Below are positions 24,168 through 32,622 of a DNA stretch of 34,680 bases, in pieces; positions within the stretch are counted from its first letter, which is position 1; every line of letters begins with the position of its first letter. Where the stretch lies: the NCBI GenBank assembly GCA_902789245.1, contig CADAND010000018.1, positions 1-34,680 on the forward strand, given 5' to 3'. The notes beneath the pieces are model-generated. The model was not told the origin of the DNA. It was given only the letters and a program-made list of their open reading frames with translations, and made no database searches. A program made the translations under genes and the position numbers. This stretch comes from an uncultured Bacteroidia bacterium. GTDB lineage: Bacteria; Bacteroidota; Bacteroidia; Bacteroidales; UBA932.

Positions 24168-24278
24168 CTGTGAGCAGTAATGCTTTGATTTATAGTAAAA
24201 TAATATTTTATACTCCCCCGATTTTTAGGGGAGTATAAATCTATAAATTACTGAATAATAGTTAGTTATTGCTCACAG
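24168..24278. repeat. Palindromic repeat element, copy 2
   Basis: This 111-bp element starts with CTGTGAGCAGTAA (24168-24180) and ends with the near inverse TTATTGCTCACAG (24266-24278). The core stem is TTTATACTCCCC (24207-24218) with its complement at 24228-24239. Ends and core match copy 1 at 3683-3789. Its right arm supplies the stop codon and last codons of murI (residues SCEQ). Confidence 0.75.
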
Positions 24279-25051
24279 GAAATGCGAGCGGCGAGGGCAT
24301 GAAGGGTGGTGGGGTCGCCGGAAGCGAGGAGGGTGAGGGATCCTTCGCTGTGCTCAGGATGACATTGCCCGGAATCAGGATGACAGGGAATCTGGCGGTC
24401 CTGGAGAATGTGGAGCACCTGGCGGGCGACAGCGGGCGCCGGGTCGATGACGCGGACGCCGGGCCCGGCGATGCGCTCGATGACGGGCAGCAGGAAGGGG
24501 TAGTGCGTGCAGCCGAGCACGATGGTGTCGGCGCCGGCGTCGAGCATCGGCTGCAGGCTCGCACGGACGACGCGCTCGGCCTCGGGGCCGTCGAGTTCGC
24601 CGCGTTCGACGAGCTGCACGAAGCCCTCGCCGACGTGCTCTTCGATCCGCACGTTGTCCTGGAACCGCCCCTTGGTGTTGAGATACTTGGACGCCTTGAG
24701 GGTGCCGGCGGTCGCGAGCACGCCGATCACGCCGCTGCGCGTGCCGAGCGCGGCCGGCTTCACCGCCGGCTCCATCCCGACAAAGGGGACGTCAAACTCC
24801 GCGCGCAGGGTTGCGATGGCGGCGCCGGTGGCCGTGTTGCAGGCCACGACGATCACGTCCGCACCCTTGTCCAGCAGCAGGCGCGTGATCGCGCGTGCGC
24901 GCTCCTGGATGAACTCCGCGCTCTTCTCCCCGTAGGGACAGTAGGCGTTGTCGGAGTAGTAGATATAATGTGCGGAAGGGAGGACCTTCCGTATTTCCTT
25001 CAATACCGAAAGTCCTCCCGAACCGGAATCAAATATGCCGATTACAGCCAC
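24266..25051 (-). CDS. murI: Glutamate racemase
   Basis: This 261-residue enzyme makes D-glutamate for peptidoglycan stem peptides. The two catalytic cysteines are Cys71 in VVACNTATG and Cys181 in LGCTHYPFLL. The substrate region FDSGSGGLSVL opens the protein. It starts with GTG (25049-25051), sharing one base with the TAG stop of the DUF6515 gene, so it is translationally coupled. Residues 221-238 (IPCHPDSGQCHPEHSEGS) do not fit the family. They are encoded by a tandem TCAGGATGACA repeat, after which the normal C-terminal segment LTLLASGDPTTL resumes. The last residues come from the palindromic element at 24168-24278. Catalytic parts are intact, so the enzyme is probably active. It is the last gene of the proposed muropeptide operon. 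Confidence 0.93.
   Translation of the reverse strand: MAVIGIFDSGSGGLSVLKEIRKVLPSAHYIYYSDNAYCPYGEKSAEFIQERARAITRLLLDKGADVIVVACNTATGAAIATLRAEFDVPFVGMEPAVKPAALGTRSGVIGVLATAGTLKASKYLNTKGRFQDNVRIEEHVGEGFVQLVERGELDGPEAERVVRASLQPMLDAGADTIVLGCTHYPFLLPVIERIAGPGVRVIDPAPAVARQVLHILQDRQIPCHPDSGQCHPEHSEGSLTLLASGDPTTLHALAARISCEQ
24338..24391 (-). repeat. In-frame repeat insertion within murI
   Basis: TCAGGATGACA occurs twice (24354-24364 and 24375-24385), 21 bases apart, next to a GGATCC-TTCGCTGTGCTC stretch. Read on the minus strand this encodes CHPDSGQ and CHPEHSEGS. Such CHPExSEGS peptides are the usual translation of a widespread dispersed repeat in bacterial genomes (from memory). Confidence 0.7.
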
Positions 25052-26454
25052 TACAGCGAGTCGTACAGGTCGTATTTCTGGGCCAGGGAGCCGGTCAGCT
25101 GACCGAGCACCTCGAAGTAGGGCGATCCGTCGATGATGGTGAGCCGGTACACGGTGTCGTCCACCTTGTAGTACTCCTCACCGTCGAGGGTGATCGTGTC
25201 GTAGTCGTCAGGCAGCTCGTTCACCAGGGCGCCCGCGGGCGGGACGATGGTCACGTACTTGCCGTCCTTGTCCTTGATGAAGAACACACCGTCCTGGTAG
25301 AAGTACTCCACGCCGGCGTCGGCGTAGCTCTGGACCAGGCCCAGGCGGTTGGCCTCCTGGTAGGATTTGGCGGCGCGGTCGCTGTTCAGGGCGATGTCCG
25401 CATTCTGACGGGCGATCGTGGCGTTGTTGGCCGCGATGGTCGCGTTCTGGCTGGCGATGGTCTGCGCGTTCTCATTGATCGTACGGTACGTGTTGGCCAC
25501 GTCGTAGTAGTAGGCGAAGTTGCAGGCTGCGTAGATGATATTGTCCAGGACCGCGTCAACGACGATGCCGAAGGGCGGGCGGCTCACATAGTAGTAGCCT
25601 CCGTAGTAGCGGTAGTAGATGCCGTCGAGCAGGTAGTACGGGATGCCTGCGTACACCACGCGGGTGCGGCGGGCCGGCAGGTAGGAGACGCGGTAGCCGA
25701 AGTAGTGGTGACCGCCGTCCCAGAAGCGGACGGCACGTCCGTACGGCATCGGATCGCGGCGGCGCGGCGGGATGCGCTCCATGTTGTGGCCGGGACCCGG
25801 GTGCATCTTGATGTGGTGCGGCTCGCGGCCGCCCTCGAAGTTGCGCGGGGTGCCGGGGCGCTCACGTACGGTGCGGGGAGCATCCCGCTTCATGCTCATG
25901 CCCGGCTGGGGCTGGTTGCGGTTGATGCTGTGGCCCGGTTCGTTGTGGCGCGGCTCGTTGTGACGCGGCTCCTGCCTGGCCCGCGGCTGCTCGCGACGAG
26001 GCTGCTGCGGCTGAGCCTTCGGCTGGGAAGGAGCTTTCGGCTGGCTGGAAGCCTTCGGCGCCTGCTGAGGCTGAGCCTTCGGCTGCGGCTGTGTCCGCTG
26101 CTGGGGAGCTGTGCGCTGGGGCGCTGTCCGCTGCTGGGGCGCCGTGCGCTGCTGGGGCGCCGTGCGCGGCTGGGCCTGCGGCTGCGAACGCTGCGGCTGG
26201 GCGGCGCTATGGGATTGGGAACTGCGGCTCACGGAGCCGAGTCCCTTGGTATTGCCGGACTGGCCGGCGCTTCTGTTCTGGGAAGAGGGAGCAGACATCG
26301 AAGAGGAAGGACGGGTGCCGCCGCTGTTGCGGGCATTGCCGCCGCCCGATCCACCGCGGGAATTGCTGCCGCCCCTGGTCTGAGCGTCTACGGGGACCGC
26401 GATCATAGCCGCTGCGGCTACTGCGATCAGGGAGAGTGTGGTCAAGCGTTTCAT
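25051..26454 (-). CDS. DUF6515-like exported protein with a Gln/Pro/Arg repeat region
   Basis: This 467-residue protein has a signal peptide ending near VDAQ (about residue 25). Residues 26-215 are low complexity: Gly/Ser-rich, then a tandem RTAPQQ repeat (six-residue units, DNA about 26090-26167) and QPKAQPQ and RHNEP repeats, all basic. The C-terminal half has a Tyr-rich membrane-like stretch (YYLLDGIYYRYYGGYYYV) and a helical region with repeated ATIA / NATI units (about 350-385), ending in a conserved YFYQDGVFF...Y(Y)KV domain typical of DUF6515 as I recall it. Function is unknown. It is likely an envelope protein that binds glycan or other polyanions. It lies 12 bases after the NamZ gene and its stop codon overlaps the murI start by one base. 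Confidence 0.75.
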   Translation of the reverse strand: MKRLTTLSLIAVAAAAMIAVPVDAQTRGGSNSRGGSGGGNARNSGGTRPSSSMSAPSSQNRSAGQSGNTKGLGSVSRSSQSHSAAQPQRSQPQAQPRTAPQQRTAPQQRTAPQRTAPQQRTQPQPKAQPQQAPKASSQPKAPSQPKAQPQQPRREQPRARQEPRHNEPRHNEPGHSINRNQPQPGMSMKRDAPRTVRERPGTPRNFEGGREPHHIKMHPGPGHNMERIPPRRRDPMPYGRAVRFWDGGHHYFGYRVSYLPARRTRVVYAGIPYYLLDGIYYRYYGGYYYVSRPPFGIVVDAVLDNIIYAACNFAYYYDVANTYRTINENAQTIASQNATIAANNATIARQNADIALNSDRAAKSYQEANRLGLVQSYADAGVEYFYQDGVFFIKDKDGKYVTIVPPAGALVNELPDDYDTITLDGEEYYKVDDTVYRLTIIDGSPYFEVLGQLTGSLAQKYDLYDSL

Positions 26455-26466
26455 AATTGTGTGATT

Positions 26467-27753
26467 TTAGTATAAGTAATACTTCTTTGACAGGGCTTTG
26501 AAAGCGGGGACGTCCGCGGACCAGAAGCCGGCGATGTCCGAGACTTTCATCGTCTGTCCAAACGTATTACTGACAAAATCAGTGCCGCAAACTTTGTTGA
26601 ACATGGAAAGCCTGTCCGAGGCCCCTGCAATGGGGTTTTTCCGGTACAGTTCCCAGACGGCCTGCATGACGTAGAACTGCGTGAGGGTGAGCGTCGCGGC
26701 TTCGTAGTCGGTATAGTAGTACTGGACGCCGTGGATGAGTTTGCCGGACAGACGCCCCGAAATCGGCTGGTAGTGGATGGTGCGCCAGGCCACGCCCGGG
26801 ACGTGGTAGCTGTCCAGTTTCTCTTTCAGCTTGTCGGCGTCGACCCACTCTTCGGCGAAGGTCGCGAAGGGGAGGGTGTAGCCGATGCCGATGTTGAGGT
26901 AGTTGTACATCTCGCCGCACAGGCCCGCGGAGGGGTAGCAGATGGCCGTCTCGGCGTAGGGGATGTTCGGGGACGGGAGGATCCACGGCAGGCCCGTGTC
27001 GCCGAAGAGCATGTCGCGCGTCCAGCCCTCCATCGGGATGACGGTGAGCTGGCACTTCAGCGGGGCGGCCTTGCCGTTCTGGCCGCGGTTCAGGCCCTCC
27101 TCGTTGATGAGCGTGGCGAGCTCGCCGACCGTCAGGCCGTAGATGTAAGGGATCTTGTACTGGCTGACGAAAGAATGGAAACCGTCGCGCACGAGCGGCC
27201 CCTCGACCTTGCGCCCGCCCAGCGGGTTGGGGCGGTCGAGCACCATCACCGGGATGCCCATCTCAGCGCAGGTGCGCATCACCAGGCCCAGCGTGGAGAT
27301 GAAAGTGTAGGAGCGGCTGCCCACGTCCTGGATGTCGTAGACCATGATGTCCACGCCCTGGAGCATCTCCTTCGTGGGTTGGCGGGTGCTGCCGAAGAGC
27401 GAGTGCACCGGCAGGCCGGTGTGTTCGTCCTTGCCGGACTCGACCTTGCCGCCGGCATAGACGTCGCCGCGCACGCCGTGCTCCGGGGCGTAGAGCGCCA
27501 CGAGCTTCACGTCCGGCGCCTCGAAGAGGATGTCGATGGTGGAGTTGAGCCGGGAGTCGACACCCGAAGGGTTGGTGACCAGGCCGACACGTTTGCCTTC
27601 CAGCCCCGCGAAACCGCGGTCTCGCAGGACCTCGATGCCCGGCTTGACCTTCGGGGCGGAGGAAGCGGCGGGGGAGGCGGCGTTGGCGCAGGCGGCTAGG
27701 ACAAGCAGCGCCGCCGCGCAAAGAAGGTGACGGTAATGGTGGCGAGACAACAT
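26467..27753 (-). CDS. namZ: NamZ-type exo-beta-N-acetylmuramidase (DUF1343/YbbC, GH171) lipoprotein
   Basis: This 428-residue protein of the DUF1343 family removes non-reducing terminal MurNAc from peptide-free glycan in characterised members (Bacillus subtilis NamZ). It has a lipoprotein signal with lipobox LAAC (Cys22). The fold signatures are GKRVGLVTNPSGVDS (about 53-67), the conserved YAPEHGVRG with Glu91, DIQDVGSRSYTFI, LDRPNPLGG and LPWILPSPNIP. The start is the ATG at 27753. This start lies 58 bases inside the 3' end of the permease gene, so coupling is strong. The DUF6515 gene follows after 12 bases. The lipid anchor puts it outside the inner membrane, next to the permease in function as well as position. 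Confidence 0.9.
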   Translation of the reverse strand: MLSRHHYRHLLCAAALLVLAACANAASPAASSAPKVKPGIEVLRDRGFAGLEGKRVGLVTNPSGVDSRLNSTIDILFEAPDVKLVALYAPEHGVRGDVYAGGKVESGKDEHTGLPVHSLFGSTRQPTKEMLQGVDIMVYDIQDVGSRSYTFISTLGLVMRTCAEMGIPVMVLDRPNPLGGRKVEGPLVRDGFHSFVSQYKIPYIYGLTVGELATLINEEGLNRGQNGKAAPLKCQLTVIPMEGWTRDMLFGDTGLPWILPSPNIPYAETAICYPSAGLCGEMYNYLNIGIGYTLPFATFAEEWVDADKLKEKLDSYHVPGVAWRTIHYQPISGRLSGKLIHGVQYYYTDYEAATLTLTQFYVMQAVWELYRKNPIAGASDRLSMFNKVCGTDFVSNTFGQTMKVSDIAGFWSADVPAFKALSKKYYLY

Positions 27754-29024
27754 AGCATGACAACGATAAAGAATCCGACATAGCCGAGGGCCTCCTGCAT
27801 CCAGCCGGCGAACAGGCCGGGGATCATCATCGACAGGGCCATGAAGGCCGTGCAGATGGCGTAGTGCGAGGTCTTGAAGCTGCCCTCGGAGAACTGCATC
27901 ATATAGAGCATGTAGGCCGTGAAGCCGAAGCCGTAGCCGAACTGGTCGATGGCGACGAGCAGGAAGATGCTCCAGAGCGCGGTGGGCTGCACGGCGGCGA
28001 GGACGAGGTACACGGCGCAGGGCAGGGCCAGGGCCATGGACATGGGCCACATGGACCTGCGCAGGCCGAATTTCGCGGCGTACAGGCCTCCCAGGATGCC
28101 GCCCACGGTCAGGGCGATGACGCCCACGGTGCCGTACACGAGGCCCGACTGGGCGGTGCTGAGCCCAAGGCCGCCGGACTCGACGGGGTCGAGCAGGAAG
28201 GGGGTGAGCATCTTGACGGAGAAGGCCTCCGGCAGGCGGTACAGCAGCATGAAGGCGATGGCGAGCCAGACGCCCGGTTTCTTGAAGAAGGTCACCCAGG
28301 CCTGTCCGAATTCCCGGAAAATCCGTTTCGTTTCGCTGGACGGCAACTGCTCATTCTCCGCTATCGGGCTATCCGCTCGCCCGACACTGTCCGGGAGAAC
28401 GGCTTCGGAAGGGCCGCTGCCGTCCGGCGACTCTGCCTTCGGAAGGAATCGGGTGTGCCACAGGGTGATGAGTCCGAAGAGCACGGCGGAGGCGAGCAGG
28501 GTGATGCTCCAGGCGCGCGGGATGGCGCCCAGACGCTCCTCCAGCACGCCGGCCAGCACCACGATCACGCCCTGCCCGAAGACGGAGGCGATGCGGTAGA
28601 AGGTGCTGCGGATGCCCACGAAGGTGGCCTGCTGCTTCTGCTCCAGGGCGATCATATAGAAGCCGTCCGCGGCGATGTCGTGCGTGGCGGAGGCGAAGGC
28701 GATGACGTAGAAGATGACCAGCGACCAACCGAACACGTCCGGACTGACGCTCAGGGCGAGCGCCGCGAAGCCGGCCGTGCACAGGGCCTGCATCAGCAGG
28801 ATCCACCAGCGCTTGGTGCGGATCACGTCCACGAAGGGGCTCCACAGGGGTTTGATGACCCAGGGGAGGTAAAGCAGGGAGGTGTACATGGCCAGGTCGC
28901 CGTTCGGCATGCCCAGGCGCTTGAACATCGTCACCGAGATGACGTTGACAAAGAAATAGGGGATGCCCTCGGCGAAGTAGAGCGTGGGGACCCACCACCA
29001 GGGGGAGCGTTGCTTATTCGACAT
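27696..29024 (-). CDS. AmpG-like MFS muropeptide/MurNAc permease
   Basis: This 442-residue transporter has about 12 predicted membrane segments and the AmpG pattern: LYFAEGIPYFFVN at the start, LLYLPWVIKPLWSPFVD, then HDIAADGFYMIAL. AmpG proteins import anhydromuropeptides or MurNAc-containing disaccharides. A polar central loop of about 45 residues (SPDGSGPSEAVLPDSVG and onward) follows segment 6 and is the least conserved part. The start overlaps the stop of the DUF4922-SpoIID gene by 11 bases, and the 3' end overlaps the namZ start by 58 bases. Pairing with NamZ suggests that its substrate is MurNAc or MurNAc-GlcNAc freed from peptidoglycan. I do not give it the symbol ampG because the substrate is not proven. 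Confidence 0.87.
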   Translation of the reverse strand: MSNKQRSPWWWVPTLYFAEGIPYFFVNVISVTMFKRLGMPNGDLAMYTSLLYLPWVIKPLWSPFVDVIRTKRWWILLMQALCTAGFAALALSVSPDVFGWSLVIFYVIAFASATHDIAADGFYMIALEQKQQATFVGIRSTFYRIASVFGQGVIVVLAGVLEERLGAIPRAWSITLLASAVLFGLITLWHTRFLPKAESPDGSGPSEAVLPDSVGRADSPIAENEQLPSSETKRIFREFGQAWVTFFKKPGVWLAIAFMLLYRLPEAFSVKMLTPFLLDPVESGGLGLSTAQSGLVYGTVGVIALTVGGILGGLYAAKFGLRRSMWPMSMALALPCAVYLVLAAVQPTALWSIFLLVAIDQFGYGFGFTAYMLYMMQFSEGSFKTSHYAICTAFMALSMMIPGLFAGWMQEALGYVGFFIVVMLCCLATITVTFFARRRCLS

Positions 29025-31080
29025 CGGTTCCGGGATAATAGTGTTGGAGAATCTGCCTGTAGTTGTGGCCGCGGGCGGCCATCACGGCGGCGCCGATCTG
29101 GCAGAGGCCGACGCCGTGGCCCCAGCCGCGGCCGCGCAGGATCCACGCGCCGGCGGGGTCGCGCTCCACCTCGAAGGCGGAGCTCTTGAGGTGGGAGGAG
29201 CTCAGCGCACGACGGATCTTCAGCTCCTTGCCTACCACCTCCGTACGCTTGCTGCCCACGATGCGCAGGTACTTGATGCGCCCGGACGGGCCGCGCTCGA
29301 CGGGCTCGAGCGCCCGGATCTCGCCGAAGTCGATCCCGGTGCGCTCGCGCACCAGGGCGGCGAGTTCGTCGGCGCCGTAGCGGACGGTCCAGTCGTGGAA
29401 ATCCTTGGTCTGCTGGTCGTAGTCGTTGAGGACCTGGGCGAGAATCTCGTCGTTCTCGCAGTCGCACCAGGGGTCGTCGACGCACTGCAGGTAAGGGTAG
29501 TCGATGTCCTCCCAGCAGGTGCTGAAGAGCTCGGTCTTGCCGCCGCAACACTTCGAGTAGCGGGTGTCGCAGAGCTGTCCCCGGTAGCGGAGCACCTGGC
29601 CCCAGGTCTCGTCGATGACGGTGCGGACGTTGTCGCCCACGGCCATCGTAAGTCCCTGATATCGTTGGCAGTGATCATCTGCGCACACGTCGAAATTATC
29701 GTGTGCTGAATGATCCTCCATGCGGGCAAGGAGCCAGGAGCGGGAGATGACGGCGTGGGCCTTGAGCAGGTCGACGGAGGCGCTGGACTTCATCTCCGAG
29801 GAGATGACGCTCAGCAGGTAGTCCTCCATGCCCACGAGGTTGACGGCGCGGATCTTGTCGCCCTCGACGATGAACTTCAGGCCGCCGGCGAACTTGAGCG
29901 TGCGCTTCTGCTGCCAGTGGAAGTCGATGCCGATCACCACGTCGTGCAGGATGAAGGACGGCTCGGCAAACAGCGTCGAGCGCGTGATGGAGTCGAAGAA
30001 CAGCTCGTCGTAGAGCGCCCCGTTGTAGGCGATGCGCCCTTCGCTGTAGCGGACGCGCTGCGGACCGGCGCCGTCGGAGATGATCTCGAAACAGATCTCC
30101 TCGGCGGCGAGGATGCCCACGGCCACGCGGGGCTGGGTGCGCGTCAGGCGCCACTCGATCATTTCCTGCTCGCGGGAGGGGATCGTCACCTCGTCGAGAA
30201 TGGCCTCCAGCAGCGCGGGTGTCGCCTTTTCGAAGTCCTCGCGGAAGGGGGTCACGAACACGCCGGCCATGTCGGCGGCGCCGGGACTGACGGTCAGGTG
30301 GTCGTCGCCCGTGGCGTCGAAGTGGTGTGAGCGCTTGGCGGAGCGGAGCACCACGAAGCAGCGCCACTCCGCGCCCTTGACGTAGGCGTAGAGGTTGAAT
30401 TTGGGCTCCGTCTCGCCGGGCCGCCGGTCGCAGCAGTCCAGCAAGCGGTAGAAGAGCTTGGTCAGGGATTTCGCGGTCGTGGCCTTGAGCGCATAGACGC
30501 CCCGGCAGTAGCCGGGGAAGCGGTACAGCGTCGCGTCCTTGACGCTCGCGAGCGCTTCGCCGGGCGCGTCGAGGAAGGCGTCCACGGCCTCCTCGAGCGG
30601 CATCCCGTGGCGCGGGGCCGCCTGGAAGTGCAGGTGGTCGGGCGCGGAGGCGCCGCTGGCCGGGCCGTTGTAGAAGGCCGTGAAATCCGGATACTTTCGG
30701 GCGAAGTCCAGGATGTCCGGCATGTGGTGCCAGATGGCCTGGGGGAGGTGCTCCTCGCGGACGATCACCAGGTGGTCCCTGAAGATGGGGAAGGGGTTGA
30801 TCTGGACGTTGTACATCCGCCCCTTGCGGCCTTCGAATTTGATATGGTGCTGCTCCTCCGGGCGGTTTCGCTCGCACAGGAAGCAGGGACGGGCGGCGAT
30901 GGCCTCGGGAGAGGTGTCCGCCGTCGAGGATCCCACGCGCTCGGGGTTCCACTGGATGCGGCAGGGGAGGCCGAAGACCGGGAACTCCCGTGTCTTGACC
31001 GCCTTCAGCGCCCGGAAATTAGCCGCGGCAAGCGGCCATATGGAGAGCTGGTCTTGGATGAATTTGCGCAGTTCTTGCAT
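29014..31080 (-). CDS. Fusion of a GalT/HIT-like nucleotidyltransferase domain (DUF4922) and a SpoIID/LytB domain
   Basis: This 688-residue protein has no signal peptide and no membrane segment. Residues about 30-300 resemble the GalT/GDP-hexose phosphorylase branch of the HIT superfamily: RPCFLCERNRP (Cys66 and Cys69), NPFPIFRDHLVIV, and SAPDHLHFQ, an HxHxQ motif (His149, His151, Gln153) in which one His forms the nucleotide link in GalT. Residues about 315-688 are a SpoIID domain: VGMEDYLLSVISSEM with Glu429, the position of the catalytic Glu of SpoIID, and RGWGHGVGLCQIGA (650-663). A cysteine-rich stretch (465-542) is unusual. SpoIID enzymes cut peptide-free glycan strands. The protein is predicted to be cytoplasmic, where only imported fragments would be available. 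It overlaps the Nudix gene by 1 base and the permease gene by 11. Confidence 0.86.
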   Translation of the reverse strand: MQELRKFIQDQLSIWPLAAANFRALKAVKTREFPVFGLPCRIQWNPERVGSSTADTSPEAIAARPCFLCERNRPEEQHHIKFEGRKGRMYNVQINPFPIFRDHLVIVREEHLPQAIWHHMPDILDFARKYPDFTAFYNGPASGASAPDHLHFQAAPRHGMPLEEAVDAFLDAPGEALASVKDATLYRFPGYCRGVYALKATTAKSLTKLFYRLLDCCDRRPGETEPKFNLYAYVKGAEWRCFVVLRSAKRSHHFDATGDDHLTVSPGAADMAGVFVTPFREDFEKATPALLEAILDEVTIPSREQEMIEWRLTRTQPRVAVGILAAEEICFEIISDGAGPQRVRYSEGRIAYNGALYDELFFDSITRSTLFAEPSFILHDVVIGIDFHWQQKRTLKFAGGLKFIVEGDKIRAVNLVGMEDYLLSVISSEMKSSASVDLLKAHAVISRSWLLARMEDHSAHDNFDVCADDHCQRYQGLTMAVGDNVRTVIDETWGQVLRYRGQLCDTRYSKCCGGKTELFSTCWEDIDYPYLQCVDDPWCDCENDEILAQVLNDYDQQTKDFHDWTVRYGADELAALVRERTGIDFGEIRALEPVERGPSGRIKYLRIVGSKRTEVVGKELKIRRALSSSHLKSSAFEVERDPAGAWILRGRGWGHGVGLCQIGAAVMAARGHNYRQILQHYYPGTDVE

Positions 31081-31652
31081 TACAGAAGGGCCAGGAGAGC
31101 GTTCTTGATGCGTTGGTATTCCCCTTCGAAATTGGGGGTCAGGATGCCTTTCCCGATGCTCTGCTCGATCTCCTCGAGGGTCCAGAAACGGCCGCCGGCG
31201 AGTTCGTCGGGGTCCGGGTGGATCTCGTATTCCCCGACGGCGGCAAACACGTTGACCAGCTCGCGCTCGTCGGCGGACTCGAAGACGTAGTGGCAGAGCC
31301 CCTGGGGCAGGAAATCATGCAGGCCCAGCTCCTCGGCCGCCTCGCGGTAGAGGGCTTCGGGAATGTATTCTCCGTAAGCGACGTGGCCGCCCACGGCGGT
31401 GTCCCAGTAGAGCGGCAGCAGGTCCTTGTGGGCGCCGCGCTGCTGGAGATACAGCTCGCCAAGGCGGTTGATGACATGCAGATGGACGACGGGATGGAGC
31501 GGCTTGGCGCCTCCCTGGTGGACCAGCTCCCGGGGAGCCTGGGCCCGGACATTGCCGAGCTCGTCCACGACGGGAACCATCTCCGCGGCGGTGCCGCGTT
31601 TGCAGCCTTTCAGAAGCGGAGCGGGCGAGGCGGGGTAGATCAACTCAATCAT
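31080..31652 (-). CDS. Nudix hydrolase
   Basis: This 190-residue protein has a full Nudix box GX5EX7REX2EEXG at about 89-110 (GGHVAYGE, then REAAEELGL). Nudix enzymes hydrolyse nucleoside diphosphates linked to another group, or act on isoprenoid diphosphates. The start segment VPVVDELGNV and the segment HVINRLGELYLQQRG resemble the YfcD / IPP-isomerase-like branch. I place the start at the ATG at 31652, 4 bases after the stop of the HU-like gene. A later start at Met25 would also fit the family. Its stop shares one base with the start of the DUF4922-SpoIID gene. The neighbour makes a nucleotide-sugar substrate plausible, but that is inference. Confidence 0.88.
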   Translation of the reverse strand: MIELIYPASPAPLLKGCKRGTAAEMVPVVDELGNVRAQAPRELVHQGGAKPLHPVVHLHVINRLGELYLQQRGAHKDLLPLYWDTAVGGHVAYGEYIPEALYREAAEELGLHDFLPQGLCHYVFESADERELVNVFAAVGEYEIHPDPDELAGGRFWTLEEIEQSIGKGILTPNFEGEYQRIKNALLALL

Positions 31653-31656
31653 GACT

Positions 31657-32622
31657 TCAGTAGTTGATGATCCGCAGCTCGTCCGGAGTGTACAGCAGGG
31701 TGTCGATGAAGTCCGGTGCCACGCGCGCCAGGACCACGAAGGCGGCGAGGCCCAGGATGGCCAGTCCGATGAGGACAAGCAGGAAGACGACGATGCCCGG
31801 AATACCCTTGCGCGCGGGCTCCTTCCAGTCGTCGTGAATCCAGGCGGCGGGGTAGGTGGCAGGCCGCGTGCGCGGCTCTTCAGGCTGCGCCTCTTCAACC
31901 TTCTCTTCCTCAGCGCCTGCCTTCTCCTCTTCATTGCCGACGGACTCTTCTTCAGTGCTTGCCGTAGCTTCTTCAGCACCGACCGTTTCCTCGTCAGCGC
32001 CGGCCGCTATTTCGTCATTGCCGACCTGATCGGCAATCTCCTCCGGTTCCGGTATGGGAATCAGTACGGGCTCGGGTTCGGGTTCCGGCTCGGGTTCGGG
32101 CTCCGGTACGGGAATCGGTTCCGGTTCGGGTTCGGGTTCGGGCTCCGGCTCCACCACGGGCGCCGGGACGTCGATGACGACGGGCGCCTGCTCCTCCTCC
32201 GCCAGGCTCTTCAGCGAGACGGGCTCCAGCCCCACGGCGGCGGGATAGATGTCCAGGTTCTCGTCCGGGACGAAGAACAGGGTGTTCTCCCGTGTGGCGC
32301 GCAGGCGTCCCAGGCCCGGCAGCACAATGGTCTTGCGCTCCTCGAGCACGCCTTTCAGTTCGGCGAGGTACTGGGTGATATATGCGGCGGCCGCTTCGCG
32401 TGAAAGCTGGTTGGATTCGGCGTAAAACTTGATGAGGAGACTGTCCTCGAGGCGGCTGGGATAGAAGGAAAGCCGCCGATAGGGGGGATGAATGGTGTAG
32501 CCCTTGTCGGAGAAGGTCGCCGGGACCATCTCGGCGACAAAGGTGCCGACACCGGGAAGGCCTACCTGATCGTGTTCGAGGATCAGTTCGCCCACCATTC
32601 TGGACAGTAAATCGATATCCAT
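31657..32622 (-). CDS. HU-CCDC81-like DNA-binding-fold protein with a membrane segment and Pro-Glu linker
   Basis: This 321-residue protein starts with two HU-like regions of the Bacteroidetes CCDC81 type (about 1-56, MDIDLLSRMVGELILEHD and GVGTFVAE; and about 65-135, LPGLGRLRATREN). An acidic linker follows with a (EP)n repeat (158-192) and Glu/Ala/Gly-rich repeats (197-250), then one membrane segment (274-298). Related Bacteroidetes proteins usually carry a SPOR (peptidoglycan-binding) domain after the membrane segment. Here only about 23 residues follow (APDFIDTLLYTPDELRIINY), so SPOR is absent. The frame stays open upstream to 32760, but the ATG at 32622 is preferred because a TATATTTG box lies at 32637-32644. 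First gene of the seven-gene operon. Confidence 0.82.
   Translation of the reverse strand: MDIDLLSRMVGELILEHDQVGLPGVGTFVAEMVPATFSDKGYTIHPPYRRLSFYPSRLEDSLLIKFYAESNQLSREAAAAYITQYLAELKGVLEERKTIVLPGLGRLRATRENTLFFVPDENLDIYPAAVGLEPVSLKSLAEEEQAPVVIDVPAPVVEPEPEPEPEPEPIPVPEPEPEPEPEPEPVLIPIPEPEEIADQVGNDEIAAGADEETVGAEEATASTEEESVGNEEEKAGAEEEKVEEAQPEEPRTRPATYPAAWIHDDWKEPARKGIPGIVVFLLVLIGLAILGLAAFVVLARVAPDFIDTLLYTPDELRIINY
32009..32037. repeat. REP-like palindrome inside the HU-like gene linker
   Basis: ATTGCCGA - loop - TCGGCAAT (32017-32037) with TTCGTC next to it. On the minus strand the order is ATTGCCGATCAG-GTCGGCAATGACGAAA, the same layout as 19795-19822. It encodes EIADQVGNDEI in the acidic linker and keeps the frame. 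Confidence 0.55.

Follow-up and report, generated by a model that had tools for sequence, protein, structure and literature searches.

A signal-less DUF4922-SpoIID fusion in a predicted peptidoglycan salvage operon of the Bacteroidales

Gene Organization of the Locus

The window analysed here is a stretch of 34,680 nucleotides from an uncultured Bacteroidia bacterium of the order Bacteroidales (GenBank assembly GCA_902789245.1, contig CADAND010000018.1), in which seven adjoining genes at 24266-32622 form a predicted operon around a fusion of a DUF4922 domain with a SpoIID domain. The most informative feature of the locus is the SpoIID half of this fusion, which is without a signal sequence; Bacteroidales SpoIIDs, whether fused or not, keep the catalytic glutamate and the zinc ligands yet are without such a sequence, unlike those of other orders. 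This is one of three new points of the analysis, the others being the repeated change of the fusion state and the distribution of SpoIID relative to AmpG and AnmK. An earlier sequence-only reading had placed the seven genes on one strand with short gaps or overlaps, and all seven minus-strand open reading frames (ORFs) were found again, the intergenic distances in transcription order from HU to MurI being 4, -1, -11, -58, 12, and -1 bases. The value of -58 between AmpG and NamZ arises because the NamZ start is taken at 27753, giving the lipobox LAAC.

The first gene (31657..32622, minus strand, as are all features of the window described below) encodes an HU-CCDC81-like protein (PF18175 54 bits, PF18174 43 bits) with a C-terminal hydrophobic, membrane-like segment, in which a Pfam search found no SPOR domain. 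It is followed by a Nudix hydrolase (31080..31652; PF00293 49 bits) that has a canonical Nudix box and belongs to the IPP-isomerase/YfcD-like branch, scoring 65 bits against NF002995 of NCBIfam, under the cut-off of 127. The fusion comes next, with its DUF4922 half at 30136..31080 (PF16269 172 bits; HIT superfamily, Ap4A-phosphorylase/GalT-like) and its SpoIID half at 29014..30135 (TIGR02669 184 bits, over the cut-off of 83). The permease at 27696..29024 matches the major facilitator superfamily (MFS) and the AmpG family, so that the earlier naming as AmpG-like stands in this wider sense; however, its score of 177.5 bits against TIGR00901 lies under the cut-off of 350, and strict subfamily membership is not claimed for a protein that resembles AmpG and occupies the AmpG place in the operon. 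NamZ (26467..27753), a predicted lipoprotein of the exo-N-acetylmuramidase family, scores over the Pfam cut-offs with both of its domains (NamZ_N PF07075 277 bits, NamZ_C PF20732 106 bits), and is followed by an accessory DUF6515 protein (25051..26454; PF20125 68 bits) and the glutamate racemase MurI (24266..25051; TIGR00067 211 bits). The Pfam and NCBIfam matches thereby bear out the families named earlier for HU-CCDC81, Nudix, DUF4922 with SpoIID, NamZ, DUF6515, and MurI. The last ~40 residues of MurI (window 24266-24390) extend past the racemase profile match and include HPEHSEGS, resembling a translated dispersed repeat.

A Bacteroidota -7 box, TATATTTG, stands at the head of the operon (32644-32637), and a terminator-like hairpin of 13 pairs lies 3' of MurI (24239-24207). 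The head box had been described as the only promoter box; it is present, but a second, fuller -33/-7-like match, TTTG-N21-TACGTTTG, was found within namZ (26591-26559), ~105 bases upstream of DUF6515, and is one of 4 such sites in the window versus 0.08 expected in shuffles. DUF6515 and MurI may therefore be transcribed separately from a promoter of their own.

Domains and Active Sites of the DUF4922-SpoIID Fusion

The fusion proved to be real, forming one open frame in all 10 other genus genomes of the family sample. Its domain limits by Pfam and NCBIfam are residues 7-155 for DUF4922 and residues 407-499 (PF08486) or 412-687 (TIGR02669) for SpoIID, and no second SpoIID match was found in the window's own genome. 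In Foldseek searches, a model of the window fusion with a mean predicted local distance difference test score (pLDDT) of 88 matched the SpoIID structures 4rwr (E 5e-15) and 5i1t (E 9e-15), as well as the yeast diadenosine tetraphosphate (Ap4A) phosphorylase Apa2 (E 2e-10) and, next, GalT (E 4e-4). In a separate comparison with the PDB, DUF4922 matched entry 4i5t (E 6e-6). The motif H149-x-H151-x-Q153 of DUF4922 is invariant in 20 of 20 sequences. By this motif and the modelled fold, DUF4922 is a predicted member of the HIT superfamily in its Ap4A phosphorylase/GalT branch, and it is presumably also linked to plant GDP-L-galactose phosphorylase (GGP).

In the available text on Clostridioides difficile SpoIID, the catalytic residue is E101 and the zinc ligands are H134, C140, H145, and C146 (PMC6221140); their counterparts in the window protein are Glu429 and H460, C466, H470, and C471, respectively. 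Across 127 Bacteroidales SpoIIDs the catalytic glutamate is kept in all 127 and the four zinc ligands in 127, 127, 126, and 127 sequences, and all 20 of the sequences taken from other orders of the class retain the glutamate and the last three ligands, which does not hold for the first ligand.

Predicted Location of the SpoIID Domain

For the location test, each SpoIID domain was placed by the profile-based position of its catalytic glutamate and a hydrophobic, signal-like stretch was scored ahead of the domain. The window SpoIID has no such stretch by this sequence-based test, its N-terminus being occupied by DUF4922, and in all 88 fused proteins DUF4922 precedes SpoIID. Among stand-alone proteins, a signal-like stretch lies ahead of the domain in 2 of 39 Bacteroidales SpoIIDs versus 18 of 20 from other orders, where one of the two remaining sequences has a region too short to score and the other falls marginally under the cut-off. 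The two Bacteroidales exceptions, L079 (1.96) and L081 (2.35), have N-termini in which no signal peptide was recognized on reading, and their hydrophobic stretches are judged to lie within the domain or ahead of the start codon. The first 45 residues were also scored in 30 loci drawn from the whole order, of which six belong to genomes counted before; longest-ORF starts were used, so that in a few of the 30 the first residues precede the domain. One of the 30 was over the cut-off, inside the domain itself. Bacteroidales SpoIID consequently appears, from these predictions, to be cytosolic. In a triple fusion with a glycosyltransferase (GT2) domain, at locus L033, a hydrophobic stretch occurs near the longest-ORF start, ahead of the GT2 domain.

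Conservation of the Neighbourhood among Relatives

Loci for comparison came from sampled class and family genomes (L031-L088) together with the best 80 of at least 578 confirmed relatives (L089-L168), and include species of Cryptobacteroides, Prevotella, Dysgonomonas, and Bacteroides. After three duplicates were dropped, 127 loci with SpoIID remained, besides 7 in which only other members of the set occur. Of the 127 SpoIIDs, 62 are fused to DUF4922 and 26 to both GT2 and DUF4922, and 39 are separate, although 3 of the separate SpoIIDs have fewer than 1000 bases upstream and are possibly cut. Neighbours were counted on the same strand, in loci with enough flank and with all ORFs used. Downstream of SpoIID, AmpG is found in 97/112 loci and NamZ in 61/104, while separate upstream genes for GT2 and DUF4922 occur in 55/110 and 19/118, respectively. 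The other members of the operon are less regular over all loci (Nudix 36/105, HU 27/85, DUF6515 27/99, MurI 4/91), and recycling genes are infrequent (MurT 5/99, MurK 8/99, MurQ 7/91, AmgK 7/91, MurU 6/60). In the window-like subset, which takes in the two-domain fusions that have HU or Nudix close by and is thereby biased towards these two genes, the counts are AmpG 40/42, NamZ 34/39, Nudix 36/38, upstream HU 27/30, DUF6515 25/36, GT2 16/40, and AmgK 6/34.

The conserved core consists of SpoIID-AmpG-NamZ together with DUF4922 and, in many loci, a glycosyltransferase; the linkage of HU, Nudix, and DUF6515 to this core is seen mainly among relatives of the window. The complete order from HU to MurI is repeated in L092, and also in L093, where Nudix and AmpG are unlabelled in the map, a type of map in which absence counts for little. 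MurI was rejected as a conserved operon member: of the 29 loci with a MurI at any distance, 21 have it on the opposite strand, against 8 in which it is downstream and codirectional. The sequence-only reading had assigned the seven genes to one pathway; the neighbourhood survey upholds such a unit for the core, but not for the seven genes as a whole. Outside the Bacteroidales, SpoIID was seen in 13 of 14 fetched loci from other orders, and neither AmpG nor NamZ was seen in the 14 locus maps, from which absence is weakly indicated.

Several relatives show further genes or variants around the core. A serpin gene lies between AmpG and NamZ at L121:12597-13736, and in a close relative MurI overlaps by 4 bases with a peptidase M49 gene behind it (L092:15916-17898). 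In some relatives an acyl-ACP thioesterase and an Asp-Al_Ex permease, which are not in the window, stand between HU and Nudix (L102:5965-8415). Moreover, the AmpG of many Bacteroidales has 600-640 residues and matches its profile in two pieces, suggesting an insert (e.g., L039:11037-12914, L145:11268-13199).

Repeated Fusion and the GT2 Partner

A quickly built SpoIID tree with 124 rows requires at least 11 changes between the fused and the separate state; the two-domain fusion accounts for 9 of them, 2 of which are required even when only well-supported branches are counted. This tree drops three rows with little upstream sequence, and with them included (127 rows) the numbers become 13, 10, and 3. 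Support is low at many of its forks, and 48 of the 121 inner branches are drawn open. The joining or splitting of DUF4922 and SpoIID on more than one occasion argues for a joint function, in which the two domains would work together.

The GT2 partner is more variable. At E 1e-20, no GT2 gene was found in the window's own genome, and within the genus it is present in 26 of 41 genomes and not found in 15 of 41, or in 5 of 15 when the more complete genomes are taken. A GT2 model (L145, mean pLDDT 88) has two GT-A-like halves and is closest to the chondroitin polymerase of E. coli K4 (E 8e-20), and its DSDD and GEDY motifs are invariant in 18 of 18 sequences. The GT2-DUF4922-SpoIID triple fusion occurs in Prevotella and others (GT2 e.g., L145:7506-8963).

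Co-inheritance with AmpG and Anti-correlation with AnmK

A single sample of 198 Bacteroidales genomes was searched with cut-offs of E<=1e-20 for the SpoIID profile and E<=1e-40 for the AmpG profile, giving matches to SpoIID in 43 genomes, AnmK in 135, and AmpG in 45. All 43 SpoIID-positive genomes have an AmpG match: in 27 it is a single strong match (at least 470 bits), in 15 a long protein whose match is split into two pieces, and in one (G688) a single weaker match of 417 bits. Only two of the 155 SpoIID-negative genomes (G666 and G718) passed the AmpG cut-off; on a 15-row AmpG tree the proteins of these two form a separate group, outside the AmpGs of the operon, whereas the G688 protein, though long-branched, joins the operon AmpGs. 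No SpoIID was seen near the AmpG-like genes of G666 and G718, and more distant AmpGs were possibly missed by the profile search. AnmK, by comparison, is found in 5 of 43 SpoIID-positive versus 130 of 155 SpoIID-negative genomes (Fisher p 1e-18, with relatedness ignored), and a small number of events may account for the pattern; 25 of the 198 have neither SpoIID nor AnmK, and 5 of 27 SpoIID-positive families also contain an AnmK-positive genome.

Two observations concern AmpG away from the operon. In G688 (L233:8273-11798), the DUF4922-SpoIID fusion has GT2 upstream and no adjoining AmpG, and a divergent AmpG-like gene lies ~25 kb off. In addition, some Bacteroidales have a second group of AmpG-like permeases with no SpoIID nearby (L231:9023-10327, L232:9430-10734).

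Fate of MurNAc in the Same Genome

The fate of N-acetylmuramic acid (MurNAc) after import had been left open from the window; it is largely settled by a gene pair on another contig (C1) of the same genome, where AmgK (347 residues, APH) and MurU (242 residues, NTP_transferase) overlap by 4 bases. These enzyme names denote predicted activities and are taken from the protein families and the gene pairing. AmgK is matched in 36 of 41 genus genomes, and in L104 and like relatives DUF6515, AmgK, and MurU directly follow the operon. The AmgK-like kinase of these relatives (L104:15458-16879) joins APH to a RapZ C-terminal domain, which the window's own AmgK is without; their MurU is of the nucleotidyl transferase family. 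The own genome has no AnmK that could be found, AnmK being present in 3 of 21 SpoIID-bearing genomes, and no clear MurQ match beyond a 20-bit fragment. Its best NagZ-type GH3 protein is signal-less, has 351 residues, and, at 193 bits, falls short of the cut-off of 207.

Proposed Function and Alternative Explanations

The reading that best accounts for these results is that, as part of a Bacteroidales peptidoglycan import-and-reuse operon, a SpoIID enzyme acts in the cytosol on wall sugars brought in by AmpG, probably in anhydro form; the chances of this are put at about even. It draws on the operon conservation, the folds, the intact catalytic and zinc residues, the missing signal, the co-inheritance with AmpG, the rarity of AnmK, and the AmgK-MurU pair, all of which were computed. 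In the proposed route, NamZ, as a predicted lipoprotein, would trim MurNAc off wall fragments outside the inner membrane, and AmpG would bring in the remaining disaccharides. The signal-less SpoIID fused to DUF4922 would then process the imported sugar, most likely at its 1,6-anhydroMurNAc end, or else longer imported glycans; the signal-less NagZ-like GH3 protein would split the disaccharide, and AmgK-MurU on the other contig would convert MurNAc to UDP-MurNAc. We infer the substrate and reaction of SpoIID and DUF4922, the role of the GH3 protein, and all fluxes.

Several points weigh against this reading. The bond between MurNAc and N-acetylglucosamine (GlcNAc), the known SpoIID target, is absent from the disaccharides that the AmpG of Tannerella forsythia imports, so that either longer glycans enter, or the anhydro end is targeted, or a cytosolic glycan is served; of these, action on the anhydro end is favoured because AnmK is rare in SpoIID-positive genomes. 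The available text on T. forsythia, however, gives lower growth on anhydro than on muramidase fragments (optical density about 0.8 versus 1.3; PMC7670621), and this speaks against anhydro sugars being used efficiently in the cytosol. The NagZ cut-off was reached in none of 17 genomes, and DUF4922 and its GT2 partner are without an assigned step. Moreover, 5 of the 43 SpoIID-positive genomes keep AnmK, and AnmK was also found in the control genome Bacteroides ihuae. AnmK-positive genomes are mostly without this AmpG too, so that entire alternative routes, or a single old split in the order, may lie behind the anti-correlation. By the same token, a one-for-one replacement of AnmK by SpoIID, which was considered, is weakened.

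A more specific proposal is that a Bacteroidales SpoIID, having moved into the cytosol, replaces AnmK together with AmpG: it would re-open the 1,6-anhydro ring of GlcNAc-anhMurNAc (anhMurNAc, 1,6-anhydroMurNAc) by transglycosylase chemistry directed towards water or an acceptor sugar, with the fused DUF4922 coupling this reaction to a nucleotide or sugar-phosphate. Attack by water is plausible in the light of the muramidase description of a chlamydial SpoIID in the portion available of PMC9928106. This proposal in its full form is held doubtful. If true, ring re-opening by SpoIID would explain the use of anhydro fragments without AnmK, the point left open for T. forsythia. The predicted cytosolic SpoIID (AmpG 43/43, AnmK 5/43) is a specific candidate enzyme for such fragments. 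Bacteroidales are major gut and rumen bacteria, and their handling of anhydro wall fragments is little described. To our knowledge, no normal intracellular role has been put forward earlier for a SpoIID-type enzyme, and one here would be the first.

Other explanations place the catalytic step elsewhere or remove it. The locus could be an ordinary salvage operon from which SpoIID is exported without a classical signal to cut periplasmic wall glycans, in keeping with the action of described SpoIIDs on the wall outside the membrane, as far as the available passages tell (PMC6221140, PMC9928106), and with the lytic transglycosylase activity reported, in a source seen in part, for T. forsythia whole-cell extracts (PMC7670621). 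Such export is nonetheless unlikely, for the domain follows the HIT-like DUF4922 in one chain in 88 of 127 loci, with a glycosyltransferase too in 26, and throughout the Bacteroidales loci that were examined SpoIID is without a signal-like stretch. A loss of lytic activity, by which the SpoIID domain would have become an intracellular sugar-binding scaffold or regulator, fits the removal of its usual substrate that a cytosolic setting implies from the location test; set against the glutamate kept in 127/127 and the zinc ligands kept in 126-127/127 Bacteroidales sequences, it is very improbable.

A cytosolic complex of GT2, DUF4922, and SpoIID might instead assemble or edit a glycan, using wall sugars that are imported or nucleotide-linked, with GT2 acting like a twin GT-A polymerase, DUF4922 like a nucleotide-sugar phosphorylase, and SpoIID as the glycan-cleaving part. 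The triple fusion in 26 loci and the separate upstream GT2 in 55/110 speak for it, as do the likeness of the GT2 model to chondroitin polymerase (E 8e-20), the invariant DSDD and GEDY motifs (18/18), and the resemblance of DUF4922 to Apa2 and GalT. GT2 was, however, not found (E 1e-20) in 15 of 41 genus genomes, including the window's own, where SpoIID and AmpG are still linked, and this complex is considered rather unlikely.

Comparison with Known Systems

The closest counterpart is the T. forsythia operon Tanf_08345-08385, described in the parts available of the report as one transcript by reverse transcription PCR with the order xanthan lyase, gtf, gtf, lytB (amidase enhancer), ampG, ybbC, murT, murK, and murQ (PMC5388701). 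From the gene names and the matching order (e.g., L038, L046), ybbC would belong to the NamZ family and lytB to the SpoIID family. As far as the available text goes, the AmpG of T. forsythia imports GlcNAc-anhMurNAc and GlcNAc-MurNAc, no AnmK is predicted in this species, and the step using anhMurNAc is left to be explored (PMC7670621). The role in muropeptide salvage that had been ascribed to the locus thus gains support from the conserved SpoIID-AmpG-NamZ core and from a counterpart which, by these partial sources, is one transcript with a functional AmpG (PMC5388701, PMC7670621). The core operon is already known, and what is new is a predicted cytosolic SpoIID that is encoded beside the importer and fused to an enzyme of nucleotide type; no description of a DUF4922-SpoIID fusion or of a cytosolic SpoIID was met in the part of the open-licence literature that was covered, which was not read exhaustively. 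Partial sources do describe SpoIID-like domains within the polyvalent proteins that phages and conjugative elements encode (PMC5512222) and a chlamydial SpoIID as a lytic transglycosylase as well as a muramidase (PMC9928106).

The T. forsythia ampG-murTKQ operon and the present one share the order SpoIID/LytB, AmpG, NamZ on one strand, with gtf upstream in the former; in the window, by contrast, DUF4922 and SpoIID are fused, GT2 was not found, HU, Nudix, DUF6515, and MurI are added, and NamZ is followed by DUF6515 and MurI rather than by murTKQ. With the SpoIID lytic transglycosylases of endospore formers (C. difficile, B. anthracis), an enzyme class that acts on denuded glycan and yields anhydro products, the window protein has in common the fold, the catalytic glutamate, and the four zinc ligands of C. 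difficile, but it is without a signal or membrane anchor, carries a fused HIT-type domain, and has no SpoIIP-like gene in its operon. Recycling of the E. coli type, through AmpG, NagZ, AnmK, and MurQ, is similar in its AmpG-like muropeptide importer and NagZ-like GH3 protein, whereas the window's own genome, without AnmK and with no clear MurQ, has AmgK-MurU instead. Finally, the branch of Apa2, GDP-L-galactose phosphorylase, and GalT shares with DUF4922 the fold (Apa2, GalT) and the H-x-H-x-Q motif, and differs from it in that DUF4922 is tied to wall-sugar genes.

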